Below are positions 26,704 through 37,275 of a stretch of 64,000 bases of DNA, one piece after another. The position numbers and the translations under genes were made by a program. Location: NCBI RefSeq assembly GCF_024464595.1, contig NZ_JANHAW010000002.1, positions 744,001 through 808,000 on the forward strand, written 5' to 3'. The stretch's first letter is position 1, and every line of letters starts with the position of its first letter. Source of the stretch: Halobellus litoreus (GTDB lineage Archaea; Halobacteriota; Halobacteria; Halobacteriales; Haloferacaceae). The notes under the pieces were generated by a model. It saw nothing but the letters and a program-made list of their open reading frames with translations, was not told the origin of the DNA and did not search any database.

Positions 26704-28545
26704 ATGGGATACGTCGTTCGGATGCCGAAACTCGGTCTGGAGATGGAGAGCGGGACGCTCCTCGAGTGGTTCGTCGAGGAAGGCGAGTCGGTCGAAGACG
26801 GCGCAGTGCTCGCAGAGATCGAATCCGAAAAGACGACCGCCGAGGTCGACGCCAGAGAGAGCGGCGTGCTCCGTCGCGTCCTCCTCGATGCGGGTGAGAC
26901 CGTGTCCCCTGGGACCCCGATCGGGATTCTCGCTGAGGACGAGGCGGATATCGCGGACCTGATCGCAGACGCCGAGGCGGATCTCGGGGACGCCGCAGAA
27001 TCGACAGCGGCGACCGCGCCGGACGAACCGGAGGCGACGGCGTCAGCGGAGACGGGGGGATCCCCCGACGCTACCGCGACGGAGCCCTCGGCGGCGTCCG
27101 GGGCCCCCGCGAAGGCCAGTCCGCGTGCGCGGAAGCGAGCCGACGAGTTGGGCGTCGACCTCGCCGAGGTCGACGGCACCGGTCCGCAAGGGGCAGTCAC
27201 CGAAGACGACGTGGAGGCGAGCGCGGGCGCGGCGAGCGGGGCCGACGCGGCCGGCGGCGAGGTACGGGCGTCGCCGCGCGCGACGAAGCGCGCCGAGGAC
27301 CTCGGCGTCGACCTCGCGGCCGTGACCGGGTCGGGGCCGCAGGGGGCGATCACCGAAGACGACGTGGAGGCGCACGCGGAATCCGCGGGCGAAGCGACGC
27401 AGGCCGAGCAGGGGCCGGGAGCGACGCGGACGGTCGTCGAGGAGCGCGCCTTCGACGGGATGCGCCGGACGATCGCAAAGCGCCTCAGCGAGAGTTACCG
27501 CGAGGCGGTCCACGTCACCGAGCACCGCGAAGTCGACGCCGGGGAACTGCTCGCCGCCGCCGACGCCGCCGAGGCGGCCCTCGACGCCGAGGTTTCGATG
27601 ACCGACGTGCTGTTTTTCGCGCTCTCGGACGCCCTCGACGAGCACCCCGCGTTCAACGCGACGTTCGAGGACGACACCCACCGACTCTACGCGGAGCACA
27701 ACGTCTGTCTGGCCGTCGACGTCGAACAGGGCCTCGTCACGCCGGTCATCCCCGACGTCGGCGGGAAGTCGCTGTCGGCGCTCGCCGCCGAGCGCCGCGA
27801 GGTCGTCGAGCGGACGCTGGACGGCGACTACACGATGGGCGACCTCCAGGGCGGGACGTTCACCGTCACCAACCTCGGCGTCCTCGGCGTGGAGTCGTTC
27901 GATCCGATCATCAACCCGCCGCAGATCGCTATTCTGGGCGTGAACACGCTGCTCGACCGCGTCGTGATGGGCGAGGACGGGACGCCGGAGACGCGCCGGG
28001 TGCTCCCGCTTGACCTCTCCTTCGACCACCGTGTCGTCGACGGCGCGGACGCCGCGCGCTTCCTGGGGACGCTCGCTGACAATATCGAGGACCCTTGGCC
28101 GCTCCTTCCCGAGGCGGTCGCGGCCGAGCGAGAGGCGGGCGCTGCCGGGACGGCGGGCGCGTCGGCCCCGCGTACTGCCACCGCCCACTCTGCGGCGGGG
28201 ATGTCCGGGAGCGTCCGGACCCGGGGCACCGAACAGCGCTACGGCGACGGCCCCGAACCCTCGCCCGTCGACCTCTTCCTCGGGTCGCTCGCGGCGTGTC
28301 TGTCGCTGTCGATCCGCTACCAGGTGGAGATGCGCGACGTCTCCGTCGGCGACATCGACGTCGAAACCGACGCGGATCCGGAATCGGGGTCGGTGGAGTC
28401 AGTCGACATCACGGTGCGACTGGACGCCCCCGAGGCCGACGACGAAACCCTCGACCGCGTCGTCGAGTACGGCGAGCGGAGCTGCCACGTCGCCGAACTC
28501 CTCCGCGAGGATCTCCCCGTCGAGTTGACGTGGGAGCGACGGTAG
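26704..28545 (+). CDS. 2-oxoacid dehydrogenase E2 with two subunit-binding domains and a fused OsmC domain
   Basis: 613 residues from MGYVVRMPKLGLEMESG. Order: lipoyl domain (1-77; lipoyl Lys43 in ESEKTTAEVD), A/T/E/P linker, two tandem peripheral subunit-binding domains (about 137-175 and 188-225, each with SPRA-x-KRA-x-x-LGVDLA and GPQGA-x-TEDDVEA), E2 acyltransferase core (about 242-470) with the catalytic DHRVVDG (His442, Asp446), and a C-terminal OsmC/Ohr-like domain (about 495-613) with both peroxidatic cysteines, Cys532 in GSLAACLSLS and Cys594 in GERSCHVAELL. The N-terminal strands of a full OsmC are missing. E2 normally passes acyl groups to CoA; OsmC/Ohr proteins reduce organic hydroperoxides using dihydrolipoyl groups, so the fusion is chemically sensible. 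It converges with the E1/AcoX operon. Usual E2 length is 430-550. Confidence 0.92.
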   Translation: MGYVVRMPKLGLEMESGTLLEWFVEEGESVEDGAVLAEIESEKTTAEVDARESGVLRRVLLDAGETVSPGTPIGILAEDEADIADLIADAEADLGDAAESTAATAPDEPEATASAETGGSPDATATEPSAASGAPAKASPRARKRADELGVDLAEVDGTGPQGAVTEDDVEASAGAASGADAAGGEVRASPRATKRAEDLGVDLAAVTGSGPQGAITEDDVEAHAESAGEATQAEQGPGATRTVVEERAFDGMRRTIAKRLSESYREAVHVTEHREVDAGELLAAADAAEAALDAEVSMTDVLFFALSDALDEHPAFNATFEDDTHRLYAEHNVCLAVDVEQGLVTPVIPDVGGKSLSALAAERREVVERTLDGDYTMGDLQGGTFTVTNLGVLGVESFDPIINPPQIAILGVNTLLDRVVMGEDGTPETRRVLPLDLSFDHRVVDGADAARFLGTLADNIEDPWPLLPEAVAAEREAGAAGTAGASAPRTATAHSAAGMSGSVRTRGTEQRYGDGPEPSPVDLFLGSLAACLSLSIRYQVEMRDVSVGDIDVETDADPESGSVESVDITVRLDAPEADDETLDRVVEYGERSCHVAELLREDLPVELTWERR

Positions 28546-28611: not shown

Positions 28612-29607
28612 CTACCGACGTTCGGCAGCGCGTGCGTCCGCCGCGAGCGGCGCGGCCTCGAAGACCGCCTCGAAGTCGACCAGGCGCGGTCCGTCGCGGA
28701 CGGGCCGGACGTCGATCGCCGCGTGCTGCACTTCGAGTTCGCGCTCGCCGTCGACGCTGACGACCGCCTCCTCGACCTCGAATCCGTGTTCTTCTCCGGG
28801 ATCGAGGTGTGACCACTCGCGGACGCCGACGCGTTCGACGACGCCGGGGACGGTGATCGCGGGAACGGATCGATCGGCGTCGGCGTCGAGTTCCAGCGCG
28901 ACGCCGCGACCGTCGGCCGGGTCGACGCGGGTGAGCGCGCCGGCGACGCCGGAGAGGCCGACCTCGCCGCGGCCGGCCCGGGAGACGCCGCCGCCGAGGA
29001 AGTCGTCGGGATCGAGCACCGCCCGCGTGCCCACGAACGACTGGTCGACGATGCCGACGGTCGCGAGCCCCCTGATCGAGCGCCCGTCGTCGACGCTGGC
29101 CTCGACCATCGTGTGGCGATACGTGACGGCCTCGGAATCGACGGCGTCGGTGGCGAGGAAGGCCGCCGCCGCGCCCGCGACGGTCCCGTCGACGGGGGTG
29201 GGAACGACGTTGTTCGTCCCGGTGGAGACCGCGAGCACGGGCACGTCGCCGATTTCGACCGCCAGGTCGCGGGTCGTGCCGTCGCCGCCGAAGACGACGA
29301 CCGCGTCGACGACCTCCCGGAATCTCTCGGCCGCGCGCCGCGTGTCCGCACTCGTGCCCCCGACGGGCATTTCGAGGAGCCTGACGTTCGCTCCGTCGGC
29401 CTCCTCGACGGTCCGTTGGCCGATCTCGCCGCCGTCGGGAGCGACGACGATGTCGACGGGATCGTCGGCGAGGTCGACGCCTGCGAGGACGCATTCGGCG
29501 GCCCGACGCTTGCCGTAGGTGTCGCTGACGGTCGCGCCGCCCGTCAGGCGGCGGACGTCCCGCCCGGCCGCGGGATTGACGAGGAGCCCGATTGTCGGTG
29601 CGGCCAC
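28612..29607 (-). CDS. AcoX-like ATP-NAD kinase family protein
   Basis: 331 residues from MAAPTIGLLVNPAAGRDVRR. The nucleotide motif VVFGGDGTTRDLAVEIGD and the segment VLAVSTGTNNVVPTPVDGT place it with AcoX, a member of the NAD kinase superfamily found in acetoin-catabolism operons of bacteria. Its biochemical role is uncertain even there. It lies four bases after the E1-beta stop, so it is the third gene of the E1-alpha/E1-beta operon. Its presence hints at acetoin or a related substrate, but does not prove it. Confidence 0.88.
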   Translation of the reverse strand: MAAPTIGLLVNPAAGRDVRRLTGGATVSDTYGKRRAAECVLAGVDLADDPVDIVVAPDGGEIGQRTVEEADGANVRLLEMPVGGTSADTRRAAERFREVVDAVVVFGGDGTTRDLAVEIGDVPVLAVSTGTNNVVPTPVDGTVAGAAAAFLATDAVDSEAVTYRHTMVEASVDDGRSIRGLATVGIVDQSFVGTRAVLDPDDFLGGGVSRAGRGEVGLSGVAGALTRVDPADGRGVALELDADADRSVPAITVPGVVERVGVREWSHLDPGEEHGFEVEEAVVSVDGERELEVQHAAIDVRPVRDGPRLVDFEAVFEAAPLAADARAAERR

Positions 29608-29610
29608 TCC

Positions 29611-30624
29611 TCAGGCCACCTGACTGATCGCCTCGCGGACGTCGTCGCCGTCCGGGACTACCTCGTCTTCCAGCGGCGTGCTGAACGGGATGTGTGTGTC
29701 CGGCACGCCGACGCGCTGCAGCGGCGCGTCGAGGCTGAAGAACTCGTGTTCGACCATCCGGGTGATGACCTCCGCGTGGACGCCGTAGGAGAGCGGGCTC
29801 TCGTCGGCGACGACCATCCGGCCGGTCTTCCGGACGCTCTCGGCGAGCGTGTCGGTGTCGAGCGGGTAGAGCGAGCGGAGGTCGATGACCTCGACGCTCG
29901 TCTCGCCCGCGAGGTCGTCGGCGACGTCGAGCGACTCGCCGACGAGCCGCTGGGTCGCGACGACGGTGACGTCTTCACCTTCCCGCTCGACGCTCGCCTC
30001 GCCGATCGGGAGCGTGTAGCCGGGATCCGTCGGGACCTCCCCGGACTGCTCGTACATCATCTTGTTCTCGAAGAAGAACACCGGGTCGTTCGAGCGGATC
30101 GCGGACTTGAGCAGCCCCTTCGCGGCCGCCGGCGTCCCCGGAGTCACGGCCTTCAGCCCGGGGAAGTGCGCGAACCAGGTGTGCGGCGTGCCGGAGTGCT
30201 GGCTCGCCGCGCCCATCCCGCCGCCCTCCGTCGTCCGGACGGTGACAGGCATCTCGATCTTGCCGCCGAACATGTAGCGCATCTTCGCCATCTGATTCAT
30301 AATCTGTTCGCCGGAGACGCCGAGGAAGTCGGAGAACATCACCTCGACGACGGGGCGTGAGCCGGTGGCGGCCGCGCCGACGCCCGCGCCGACGAACCCG
30401 GCCTCGCTGATGGGCGTGTCGCGGACGCGATCGCCGCCGAACTGCTCGATGAGACCGTCAGTCACGTCGAGGACGCCGCCGAACGTTCCGACGTCCTCGC
30501 CCATCACGAAGACGTCCTCGTCCTGTTCCATCTCCTCGCGGAGCGCCGCGCGGATCGCCTCGCGGACGGTCAGCGTCTCGGTTCGATCGGTGGATGCGGT
30601 TTCGGGTTTGGTGCTCATCGTCAT
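29611..30624 (-). CDS. 2-oxoacid/acetoin dehydrogenase E1 component, beta subunit
   Basis: 337 residues. Transketolase-like pyrimidine and C-terminal domains: LTVREAIRAALREEMEQDED, VFVMGEDVGTFGGVLDVTDG (the Glu that activates thiamine diphosphate), DTPISEAGFVGAGVGAAATG, and VIDLRSLYPLDTDTLAESVR. It forms an alpha2beta2 tetramer with the product of the overlapping upstream gene (ATGA overlap at 30621-30624). Substrate specificity (acetoin, pyruvate or branched-chain 2-oxoacids) cannot be read from sequence by eye. The initiation ATG that forms the overlap is chosen over an internal ATG two codons on. Confidence 0.95.
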   Translation of the reverse strand: MTMSTKPETASTDRTETLTVREAIRAALREEMEQDEDVFVMGEDVGTFGGVLDVTDGLIEQFGGDRVRDTPISEAGFVGAGVGAAATGSRPVVEVMFSDFLGVSGEQIMNQMAKMRYMFGGKIEMPVTVRTTEGGGMGAASQHSGTPHTWFAHFPGLKAVTPGTPAAAKGLLKSAIRSNDPVFFFENKMMYEQSGEVPTDPGYTLPIGEASVEREGEDVTVVATQRLVGESLDVADDLAGETSVEVIDLRSLYPLDTDTLAESVRKTGRMVVADESPLSYGVHAEVITRMVEHEFFSLDAPLQRVGVPDTHIPFSTPLEDEVVPDGDDVREAISQVA

Positions 30625-31655
30625 TCACCTCCTGCTCCGTCGGCCCGGAGCCGGCTCGCGAACTGTTCGATCTCGGGTACCGGTTCACCGAACATATCCT
30701 CGTACGCCTCCGACGGATCGGGCAGGTCTGCGTCGCGGGCGTACTCGACGGCGGCCTCGATTTCGGCCTGCACCTCCGAGCGCATCTCCGCCAGTTCCTC
30801 GTCGGTCAGGTCGCCGCGGTCGATGAGGCGCTCGGCGAACGTGTCGATCGGGTCGCGCTCGCGCCACTGCTCGACGTCGTCCTCGTCGCGGTAGGGTTCG
30901 GGGTCGCCCTCGAAGTGGCCGCGGTAGCGATAGGTGTCGGCCTCGATGAGTGTCGGTCCGTCGCCGTTCCGTGCGCGCTCGCGGGCCTCCGCGACCGCTT
31001 CGTTGACGGCCGTGACGTCCATCCCGTCGACAGTGAAGCCCGGGATGTTGTACGACTCGGCGGTCTCGCTCAGGTTCTCGATGTTGTGCTGTTCGTCGGC
31101 GGGCGTCCCCTCGCCGAAGTGGTTGTTCTCGACGAGGAAGACGGCCGGGAGGTCCCAGGTCGCCGCGAGGTTGATCGCCTCGTGAACCTGTCCCTGCGCG
31201 ACGGCACCGTCCCCAAGGAACGCGAGCGCAACCCGGTCTTCGCCTTTGAACTGACTTGTCAGCGCGGCCCCGGTCGCGAGCGGCGGGCCGGCCCCGACGA
31301 TGCCGTTCGCGCCGAGCATATTCGCCTCGACGTCGGCGATGTGCATCGAGCCGCCCTTGCCGTTGCAGTAGCCGTCGCGCCGGCCGAACAACTCGGCCAT
31401 CATCCGGTTCGGATCGAGGCCCTTCGCGATGCAGTGGCCGTGGCCGCGGTGGGTGCTCGTGATGTAATCCTCCTCCTCCAGCGCGGCGCAGGCGCCGACC
31501 GCGACCGCCTCCTCGCCGATGTAGAGGTGGACGAACCCTGGGATCTCTCCGTCGGCGAAGAGGTCGCCGGCCGTGCTGTCGAACTCCCGAATCGTCAACA
31601 TCCGACGGAGGATCTCTCTCCTCCCGTCAGTGTCTTCAATGGAAATTGATGACAT
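30621..31655 (-). CDS. 2-oxoacid/acetoin dehydrogenase E1 component, alpha subunit
   Basis: 344 residues from MSSISIEDTDGRREILRRML. The thiamine-diphosphate motif is intact: GDGAVAQGQVHEAINLAATW through VENN. Other family features are ADGEIPGFVHLYIGEEAVAV, STHRGHGHCIAKGLDPNRMM and TYRYRGHFEGDPEPYRD. It decarboxylates the 2-oxo substrate and transfers the acyl group to the E2 lipoyl arm. First gene of a tight three-gene operon (E1-alpha, E1-beta, AcoX-like). No dihydrolipoamide dehydrogenase (E3) gene occurs in the window. The frame is open far upstream, but that stretch is antisense to the S9 peptidase. Confidence 0.95.
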   Translation of the reverse strand: MSSISIEDTDGRREILRRMLTIREFDSTAGDLFADGEIPGFVHLYIGEEAVAVGACAALEEEDYITSTHRGHGHCIAKGLDPNRMMAELFGRRDGYCNGKGGSMHIADVEANMLGANGIVGAGPPLATGAALTSQFKGEDRVALAFLGDGAVAQGQVHEAINLAATWDLPAVFLVENNHFGEGTPADEQHNIENLSETAESYNIPGFTVDGMDVTAVNEAVAEARERARNGDGPTLIEADTYRYRGHFEGDPEPYRDEDDVEQWRERDPIDTFAERLIDRGDLTDEELAEMRSEVQAEIEAAVEYARDADLPDPSEAYEDMFGEPVPEIEQFASRLRADGAGGE

Positions 31656-31781
31656 ACAGTGGGCTAGTCGACGGCTCGGGCAATGAAATTTTCTGTCGGT
31701 CGCAGAACGGTACGACTGAGTGGCATCGGTCCGAGGCGATGCACCCGAACGCTTTCGTCCGCATCCGGCGAAGGGAACGGT

Positions 31782-35488: not shown

Positions 35489-35920
35489 ATGAGTGCCGAC
35501 GCCGAGGAGGGACACAGACAGCGACCGATTCGGTGTCTCATCGCGAAGGTGGGACTCGACGGCCACGACCGGGGGGCCCACGTCATCGCCCGCGCCTTCC
35601 GTGACGCCGGCTTCGAGGTGGTCTACTCCGGGCTCCACCGTGCACCCGGGGAAGTCGTACAGGCGGCCGTCCAGGAGGACGTCGACGTGCTCGGCCTGTC
35701 GATCCTGTCGGGCGCACACAACACGCTCGTCCCGAAAGTCGTCGAGGGGCTGAAAGAGTACGGTGCCTTCGAGGACACGCTGTTGATCGTCGGCGGGATC
35801 GTCCCCGAGGAGGACCGCGAAGAGCTCTACTCGATGGGTGTCGCGGCCGTCTTCGGGCCCGGCACCCCGATGGCGGAGACGATCGAGTTCGTCCGGGAAA
35901 ACGCCCCGCGACGAGGCTGA
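35489..35920 (+). CDS. Methylmalonyl-CoA mutase, cobalamin-binding (small) subunit
   Basis: 143 residues. The B12-binding signature D-x-H-x-x-G is in KVGLDGHDRGAHVIARAF, followed by GLHRAPGEVVQAAVQEDVDV, LGLSILSGAHNTLVPKVV and LIVGGIVPEEDREELYSMGV. It covers only the cobalamin domain, as in archaea where the mutase is split; the catalytic large subunit is not in the window. It overlaps the MeaB GTPase gene by one base (TGATG), so the pair is co-expressed for propionate or 3-hydroxypropionate-type carbon flow. Confidence 0.95.
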   Translation: MSADAEEGHRQRPIRCLIAKVGLDGHDRGAHVIARAFRDAGFEVVYSGLHRAPGEVVQAAVQEDVDVLGLSILSGAHNTLVPKVVEGLKEYGAFEDTLLIVGGIVPEEDREELYSMGVAAVFGPGTPMAETIEFVRENAPRRG

Positions 35921-37275
35921 TGGACGGAGACGACGCCGCCGGCACGAAGACTTCCCTAAACCCCGAAACGGCCGCCCGCAACGAGGAACTCGTCGGGTCG
36001 CTCTTGGCCGGCGAACACCGCGCGCTCGCCAGAGTCATCACGCGGATCGAGAACCGCGAGCCGGGACACCGCGACCTCGTCTCTCGGCTCTACGGGCACA
36101 CCGGGTCGGCGACCGTGATCGGCGTCACGGGCAGCCCCGGCGCGGGGAAGTCGACGCTCGTGGACAAACTGGCGAACGCGTACCGCGAGCGCGGCGACAC
36201 CGTCGGGATCGTCGCCGTCGACCCCTCCTCGCCGTACTCGGGCGGCTCCGTCCTCGGCGACCGGATCCGGATGGGCTCGACGGGCGGCGATATGGACGTG
36301 TTCGTCCGTTCGATGAGCACGCGAGGGCGGCTCGGCGGCCTGTCGACCGCGACGACGGACGCGATCACGGCGCTCGACGCGTTCGGGAAGGACGTGATCG
36401 TCGTCGAGACCGTCGGTACCGGCCAGAGCGAAGTCGACGTCGTCCGCGCCGCCGACACGGTCGCGGTGCTCGTCCAGCCGGGCAGCGGCGACGACGTCCA
36501 GATGCTGAAGGCCGGAATCCTCGAGATCGGCGACGTCTTCGTCGTCAACAAGGCCGATATGGACGGCGTCGAACGGACGGTCGCCGAACTGGAGGAGATG
36601 ATTCACCGTCGGGACGCGGGTCGAAACGCCTCGGGGGGCCGACCGAATGCAGGTTCGGTCCTCGGCCACCACGGTGGCGAGGGCTACTCGGGCGACGCAC
36701 CAGAAGCCCAGACGCCATCCGGGTCCCGTGCGGCCGCCGATGGGTCGGCGGACGCGGCGGCCGACGTGGCGCCCCGCGAGTCCTGGCAACCGCCGGTCGT
36801 CGAGACCGTCGCGACCTCCGGGTCGGGCGTCGACGACCTCGTCGAGGCGCTGGACGCCCACGCCGCGTACCTTCGGGAGTCCGGGGACGGCGAACGGCGG
36901 GCGCTCGACCGGCTCGGCGAGGAGATCAGGCGACTGGTTCGGAGCGACGGGAACGAACTGCTGGCTGACGAGATTCGTCGGGAGGGCGGGATAGAGACGC
37001 TGGCGCAGCGGGTTCTCGACGGTGAGACCGATCCGTACACGATATCCGAGTCGATCGTCGGGCCGCTTCGGACGTGCGTCGAGGCGAACGCTGACCGCGA
37101 GGCGGACGGCGGTAGCGAGACCGACGACGCCGCCGACGGGACCGACGGCAGTAGCGAGACCGACACCGACGCTGACGGGACCGCCGATACCGACGACGCG
37201 GACGCAGTCGGGTCCGACCGCACGACCGTCGATGACGCCGACCGCACGACCGCCAGCGACGCCGACCGCGAGTGA
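35920..37275 (+). CDS. meaB: MeaB/ArgK-family GTPase, methylmalonyl-CoA mutase chaperone
   Basis: 451 residues, about 100 more than bacterial MeaB. G1 motif GVTGSPGAGKSTLVDKLANA, G3-type region VVETVGTGQSEVDVVRAADT, G4 VVNKADMDG. MeaB loads and protects the cobalamin of methylmalonyl-CoA mutase. Between the G domain and the C-terminal dimerisation helices is a low-complexity insert (about 232-290, rich in G, A, S and D), and the last 60 residues are an acidic tail of D/T/G/A repeats. Both are probably disordered salt-adapted additions. Directly coupled to the mutase small subunit. Confidence 0.94.
   Translation: MDGDDAAGTKTSLNPETAARNEELVGSLLAGEHRALARVITRIENREPGHRDLVSRLYGHTGSATVIGVTGSPGAGKSTLVDKLANAYRERGDTVGIVAVDPSSPYSGGSVLGDRIRMGSTGGDMDVFVRSMSTRGRLGGLSTATTDAITALDAFGKDVIVVETVGTGQSEVDVVRAADTVAVLVQPGSGDDVQMLKAGILEIGDVFVVNKADMDGVERTVAELEEMIHRRDAGRNASGGRPNAGSVLGHHGGEGYSGDAPEAQTPSGSRAAADGSADAAADVAPRESWQPPVVETVATSGSGVDDLVEALDAHAAYLRESGDGERRALDRLGEEIRRLVRSDGNELLADEIRREGGIETLAQRVLDGETDPYTISESIVGPLRTCVEANADREADGGSETDDAADGTDGSSETDTDADGTADTDDADAVGSDRTTVDDADRTTASDADRE

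Follow-up and report, generated by a model that had tools for sequence, protein, structure and literature searches.

A haloarchaeal 2-oxoacid dehydrogenase E2 joined to an OsmC-superfamily domain whose two cysteines persist where the lipoyl lysine is lost

The fusion gene and its neighbors

The analyzed window is a stretch of 64,000 nucleotides from Halobellus litoreus. An open-frame check of the window identified a single uninterrupted frame encoding a lipoyl domain, two E3-binding domains, an E2 acyltransferase core, and a C-terminal OsmC-superfamily domain (Table 1). All Pfam domains exceeded the curated cut-offs, and the Pfam match to OsmC spanned residues 514–608. K43, H442, D446, C532, and C594 were unchanged in an alignment of the five closest fusions. 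The positions that a sequence-only reading had given for the lipoyl lysine, the His/Asp pair of the E2 core, and the two cysteines were thus confirmed by frame, Pfam, and alignment. That reading had not included the second E3-binding domain or the first, the adjacent E1 and AcoX-like genes, or the lack of catalytic Arg and Glu residues described below. Two E3-binding domains were found in 50 of 60 full-fusion frames, a count that includes duplicate loci. The full-length AlphaFold model had a pTM of 0.40, so the placement of the domains is unreadable from that model.

Table 1. Features of the fusion gene and the adjoining dehydrogenase genes (window coordinates)
Feature	Position	Strand	Evidence or remark
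E2-OsmC fusion gene	26704..28545	+	613 aa; single open frame; four Pfam domains; start MGYVVRMPKLGLEM conserved
Lipoyl domain, residues 5-75	26716..26928	+	PF00364 (Biotin_lipoyl), E 6.7e-17
Lipoyl Lys43, motif ESEKTT	26830-26832	+	Lys kept in 55/55 full fusions
E3-binding (peripheral subunit) domain 1, residues 137-171	27112..27216	+	PF02817
E3-binding domain 2, ~residues 189-223	27268..27372	+	PF02817 counts two stretches; position via alignment and model
E2 acyltransferase core, residues 247-467	27442..28104	+	PF00198 (2-oxoacid_dh), E 9.3e-65
His442 (28027-28029) and Asp446 in DHRVVDG	within E2 core	+	invariant in near relatives
OsmC-superfamily domain, residues 491-612	28174..28539	+	PF02566, E 2.6e-17; model; PDB fold matches (OsmC/Ohr/YhfA)
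Cys532 (28297-28299), Cys594 (28483-28485)	within OsmC domain	+	
AcoX-like ATP-NAD-kinase-fold protein, convergent neighbor	28612..29607	-	PF01513, E 3.4e-9; cluster in 50 loci
2-oxoacid dehydrogenase E1 beta	29611..30624	-	PF02779 and PF02780; in 56 loci
2-oxoacid dehydrogenase E1 alpha	30621..31673	-	PF00676, E 1.3e-96; cluster in 57 loci

The protein has the features by which an E2 is recognized, namely an ESEK-type lipoyl lysine motif, a DHRxxDG core, and adjacent E1 genes, and genes for E3, LipA, and an LplA-type ligase are present in the genome. At full fusions, the usual layout is that the fusion gene converges on the AcoX-like gene, followed by E1beta and E1alpha. In a Natrialbaceae-like family, the fusion gene is flanked on its other side by KorAB, a 2-oxoacid:ferredoxin oxidoreductase pair named here from its translations. 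Two loci (L134 and L135) have another operon layout, in which E2-OsmC is followed by E1alpha, E1beta, and E3. In genus g76, OsmC is split off as its own gene and still adjoins the E1 and AcoX genes.

Two E2 genes that adjoin E1 and AcoX genes (L114, 8781-10274, minus strand; L032, 4845-6203, minus strand) retain the lipoyl lysine and E3-binding domains and have lost the catalytic His; DHRVVDG is replaced by YDARAIGG or YDPRVLDD, so that these proteins look like lipoyl carriers whose transferase is inactive. Near the dehydrogenase genes of the window, at 35489-37275 on the plus strand, two translations resemble a methylmalonyl-CoA mutase B12 subunit and a MeaB-type GTPase.

Distribution and descent of the fusion

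Homologs were sought with a profile of the OsmC half in 391 class genomes and in a set of named genomes. In this first survey, a lipoyl domain, an E2 core, and an OsmC domain were found within one frame in 55 distinct sequences, 50 of which came from 49 of the 391 class genomes. With eight sequences identified later, the total is 63 distinct intact fusions, nearly all of them haloarchaeal. Named holders include species of Halobellus, Halorubrum, Halogranum, Halegenticoccus, Halalkalirubrum, and Natronocalculus; the closest named relative for the window gene is Halobellus rarus, and the OsmC sequences of the two group in the tree. Among 393 genomes spread over the phylum, the OsmC clade was not found outside the order to which the window belongs. 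A search of plasmids returned only E2s lacking the OsmC half, the best places ending at query residue 468. The lipoyl lysine and both OsmC cysteines were kept in all 55 full fusions of the first survey, and the lysine, the E3-binding domains, and the two cysteines occur together in every intact full fusion.

An error of sequencing or assembly could in principle have fused adjacent genes, and OsmC is indeed a separate frame in four genomes of one genus. However, 63 independent intact frames were found, and the E2 that accompanies the separate OsmC frame in g76 is another one, without a working catalytic site. The probability of an assembly join or frameshift artifact is consequently negligible, and the suggestion that donor and acceptor domains share one chain survived this comparison. 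These results indicate that the fusion is real and old.

In a tree whose free OsmC proteins were haloarchaeal only, all linked OsmC halves formed one clade against the sampled free proteins (support 96/93). The E2 cores of the fusions were interleaved with unfused E2s in the E2 comparison, indicating either that some E2s have lost OsmC or that the two were joined repeatedly. A single fusion event without any loss of OsmC is therefore unsupported; one old fusion followed by losses, or a few fusions, may both account for the pattern. Since some orthologous E2s lack OsmC, the domain is not essential to the complex. In the same genome as the window, contig C2 (~447.9–454.2 kb) encodes two related proteins of 400–408 residues (L005, 799-2001, minus strand; L004, 1456-2682, minus strand), each with two OsmC-like domains, the first without the usual Cys positions and the second with Cys.

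Fold and active site of the OsmC half

The AlphaFold model of the OsmC domain, predicted as a monomer, had a pLDDT of 85.3 and a pTM of 0.82. The sequence-only reading, borne out as to the frame, the domains, the key residues, and a genuine fusion, had also held that the N-terminal strands of OsmC were missing. This part was ruled out by the alignment and the domain model: three N-terminal strands are present (residues 6–13, 17–22, and 25–27 of the modeled piece), and only the third is shortened, by a 6-residue gap in this genus relative to relatives with a full YDFDVTEEF. Comparison of the model with the PDB gave Ohr/OsmC-fold matches at a probability of 1.00. Among the matches listed, 1ml8 had the top TM-score by query (0.68, shared) and the best by target (0.67), at 16% identity to the OsmC half; we take 1ml8 to be E. 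coli YhfA. OhrB structures solved with dihydrolipoamide also appeared among the fold matches, and Ohr and OsmC proteins were listed in a sequence comparison against solved structures.

Seventy OsmC halves, fused or not and with identity to the window protein as low as 33%, were aligned, and only the two cysteines and one proline were identical in all 70. Neither cysteine was lost in any domain-complete homolog, so the sequence-only reading also survived the second of its own refuting conditions, loss of a cysteine in most homologs. The proposal that the OsmC half might be a dying remnant was dismissed, because no feature is better conserved than the Cys pair and because OsmC outlives E2 in the forms described below.

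The same alignment was examined at the columns of Arg19 and Glu51 (numbering of Xylella fastidiosa Ohr), residues tied to the reactivity of the peroxidatic Cys in Ohr (PMC5962072). The Arg19 column contained M in 38, L in 17, F in 5, and R in 3 of the 70 sequences, with other residues in the remainder, and the Glu51 column contained V in 65, I in 3, and P in 2. Thus, the domain has the two redox cysteines and, in the model, the fold with N-terminal strands of an Ohr/OsmC peroxidase but neither its catalytic Arg nor its catalytic Glu, and the earlier description of it as Ohr/OsmC-like holds for fold and cysteines and fails for the active site. YhfA proteins likewise keep the Cys pair, lack Arg and Glu, and have no known activity (PMC8945050), and the OsmC half conforms to this definition. 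Among the family models, TIGR03562 scored 21.5 bits in the window protein against a cut-off of 85.8 bits, TIGR03561 was not listed for the window protein and reached at most 26.4 bits against a cut-off of 88.85 bits in forms lacking the E2 core, and the best NCBIfam match was NF041052 (35.5 bits in the window protein; cut-off, 95). The absence of Arg and Glu, together with the Ohr/OsmC fold and the match to 1ml8, identifies the OsmC half, as judged from alignment and profiles, as a member of the OsmC superfamily whose active site is YhfA-like and which by test belongs to neither the Ohr nor the OsmC subfamily.

Forms without the E2 core, electron supply, and comparison with known systems

The first survey also identified nine sequences in which a lipoyl-like domain is still joined to OsmC without an E2 core; a tenth (L083) has a shorter remnant. 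The lipoyl lysine was lost in all ten, and both cysteines were kept in all ten. Seven E2-less forms occupy the same site beside KorAB, and E1alpha, E1beta, and AcoX are absent between KorAB and the downstream genes. Likewise, one E2-less form (L028) shares flanking genes with a full fusion of the same genus (L079), and its E1alpha, E1beta, and AcoX genes are gone. The strongest E1alpha type (310–324 bits) was present in the full-fusion genomes checked, whereas among genomes with an E2-less form it was found only in G330, beside that genome's own full fusion. The two forms of G330, full fusion and E2-less, lie at different loci (L084 and L098). According to the tree, a single origin of the E2-less forms is ruled out; six changes are forced by the starred branches, giving at least six independent origins, although six independent events are few for a statistical claim.

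The rule that intact fusions keep the lysine and E2-less forms lose it, with the cysteines kept in both, was set as a prediction and then tried on 11 new genomes; the search for these genomes preceded the reading of their sequences, and the rule was applied with knowledge of nothing but the frame lengths. Both the lysine and the cysteines were retained in eight intact fusions, one fusion (L165) is frameshifted as described below, and three E2-less forms had lost the lysine and kept the cysteines. In total, all 63 intact fusions had the lipoyl lysine and none of the 13 E2-less forms did, a contrast whose Fisher value is descriptive only because of shared descent, and both cysteines were present in 13 of 13 E2-less forms. 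In pairs of E2-less forms, pN/pS was 0.24–0.43 for the OsmC half and 0.37–0.70 for the lipoyl remnant, the OsmC value being lower in each pair. These results indicate that the lipoyl lysine follows the E2 core and not the OsmC half. They also indicate that selection acts on the two cysteines of the OsmC half even in proteins that have lost the lipoyl lysine along with the E2 core and the linked E1 genes, and hence point to a selected dithiol function that would need no lipoyl arm in cis.

Three further sequences depart from the usual forms. At L165 (4086-6068, minus strand), a frameshift in the linker, either a sequencing error or real, parts the lipoyl domain, with its lysine in the other frame, from E2-OsmC. 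L087 (6188-7618, minus strand) has an E2 core with DHRVVDG and an OsmC domain with both cysteines, has lost the lipoyl lysine and the E3-binding domains, and lacks a neighboring E1 gene; both the 63 and the 13 leave it out. The E2-less L170 (1040-2341, plus strand) carries a repetitive insert in the former lipoyl-lysine loop (GGATADAEDGGATADAGDGG).

The sequence-only reading had proposed a built-in lipoyl-dependent peroxidase, in which the protein's own swinging arm would feed the fused OsmC domain, so that acyl transfer and peroxide reduction share one arm. The literature shows that lipoylated proteins including E2 reduce bacterial Ohr and OsmC, the dihydrolipoamide-bound OhrB structures resemble the OsmC half in fold, and the constant company of lysine, E3-binding domains, and cysteines in intact fusions fits a built-in donor. 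However, the donor is evidently dispensable, as the 13 E2-less forms lack the lysine: at least six independent reductions occurred, none left a lipoyl-OsmC protein that could be lipoylated, and the cysteines were always kept. If the OsmC half needed supply in cis, at least one reduced lineage should retain a lipoylatable arm, and none does. E2-only and OsmC-only descendants exist, and the active-site Arg and Glu are absent. We therefore regard this reading as unlikely. In a related version, one arm of the intact fusion would serve E1/E2 acyl transfer and OsmC disulfide reduction by turns, making a single-chain lipoyl-dependent peroxidase or oxidized-thiol reductase, and the route in trans would operate only in the reduced lineages; this is likewise unlikely, but if true, such an arm would couple 2-oxoacid oxidation to oxidant defense.

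The OsmC domain could instead guard this complex only, by clearing acyl peroxides or H2O2 that arise when the E1 ThDP intermediate reacts with oxygen, or by repairing over-oxidized lipoyl groups. E1alpha, E1beta, and AcoX genes do adjoin the fusion in most loci, and the split-off OsmC gene of g76 is still beside E1 and AcoX, but OsmC with conserved cysteines persists after the loss of the linked E1/AcoX genes and of the E2 core, which makes a dedicated guard improbable. Alternatively, an OsmC dimer might cross-link E2 trimers, with the cysteines serving a structural role. The domain sits at the E2 C-terminus, and OsmC/Ohr enzymes are homodimers (PMC8945050). Since OsmC is kept without any E2 core in 13 sequences and the Cys pair is its most conserved feature, a structural module is very improbable.

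We favor, as fairly probable from the comparison of sequences, a thiol-redox domain that is tethered to E2 and does not depend on its own lipoyl arm, its donor acting in trans or being non-lipoyl. In this scheme, an ancestral haloarchaeal 2-oxoacid dehydrogenase E2 would have gained, at its C-terminus, a domain of the OsmC superfamily whose active site is of the YhfA kind. The E2 part would be an ordinary lipoyl-dependent acyltransferase whose partners are the neighboring E1alpha and E1beta, and the OsmC part a two-cysteine thiol-redox enzyme. Cys532 may be oxidized by an organic or acyl hydroperoxide or by another oxidized thiol, Cys594 would resolve it as a disulfide, and the disulfide would be reduced by dihydrolipoyl groups charged via E3 and NADH. 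Tethering would place the OsmC half amid many lipoyl arms without reliance on its own.

Because the redox half survives without the arm once the enzyme half has decayed, it probably does not depend on the arm, and because E2-less lineages keep OsmC without a lipoylatable lysine, a donor in trans or a non-lipoyl donor would be required. Where E2-less forms occur, the genome still encodes a high-scoring E2 (303–316 bits) and E3; an LplA-type ligase was found in all such genomes, and LipA was over the cut-off in all but one incomplete assembly, so that an electron supply in trans is available. Dihydrolipoyl groups are probably the reductant of the OsmC half, possibly in trans, and in intact fusions a protein's own arm may also supply electrons in cis. 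Several points weigh against the tethered thiol-redox domain: the Cys-activating Arg and Glu of Ohr are absent, the scores fall well short of the curated cut-offs for the Ohr and OsmC subfamilies, OsmC is missing from some orthologous E2s, and YhfA-type proteins have no known activity. In addition, FTN_1133, earlier called an organic-hydroperoxide resistance protein, proved to be no thiol peroxidase.

The E2 and OsmC halves both belong to known families, and their fusion is apparently undescribed: no earlier description of E2-OsmC was found in the open-access literature searched, where a survey of fusions in archaea from 2024 lists one with E3 and none with OsmC. Lipoylated E2 is a known electron donor of Ohr/OsmC enzymes, and the presence of donor and acceptor on one chain in many haloarchaea thus allows the link to be tested directly beyond the bacteria. 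Lineages in which the donor half has been lost, as happened repeatedly in nature, provide controls for whether the donor-acceptor link is physical, and the E2-less forms also bear on whether YhfA-type OsmC domains are redox enzymes at all.

Compared with the Ohr/OsmC lipoyl-dependent peroxidases, the fusion has the same fold and two redox cysteines but is without the catalytic Arg/Glu, lies far under the TIGR03561/TIGR03562 cut-offs, and is joined to a possible donor. It resembles the YhfA subfamily in having two Cys and neither Arg nor Glu near the peroxidatic Cys, and in its match to 1ml8, but differs in its low identity to that structure and in belonging to an E2. NF041052, the best NCBIfam match though below cut-off, describes an OsmC-related (seleno)protein, whereas the fusion has cysteine, not selenocysteine. 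As in acetoin dehydrogenase AcoABC with AcoX, E1alpha and E1beta adjoin an AcoX-like protein; unlike AcoC, the fusion falls short of the NF011457 model (79.4 of 307 bits). With 2-oxoacid dehydrogenase E2s, it shares the lipoyl lysine motif, the E3-binding domains, the DHRxxDG core, and the adjacent E1alpha/E1beta genes, but it adds the C-terminal OsmC-superfamily domain, mostly has two E3-binding domains, and lies in a cluster with an AcoX-like gene in place of E3.
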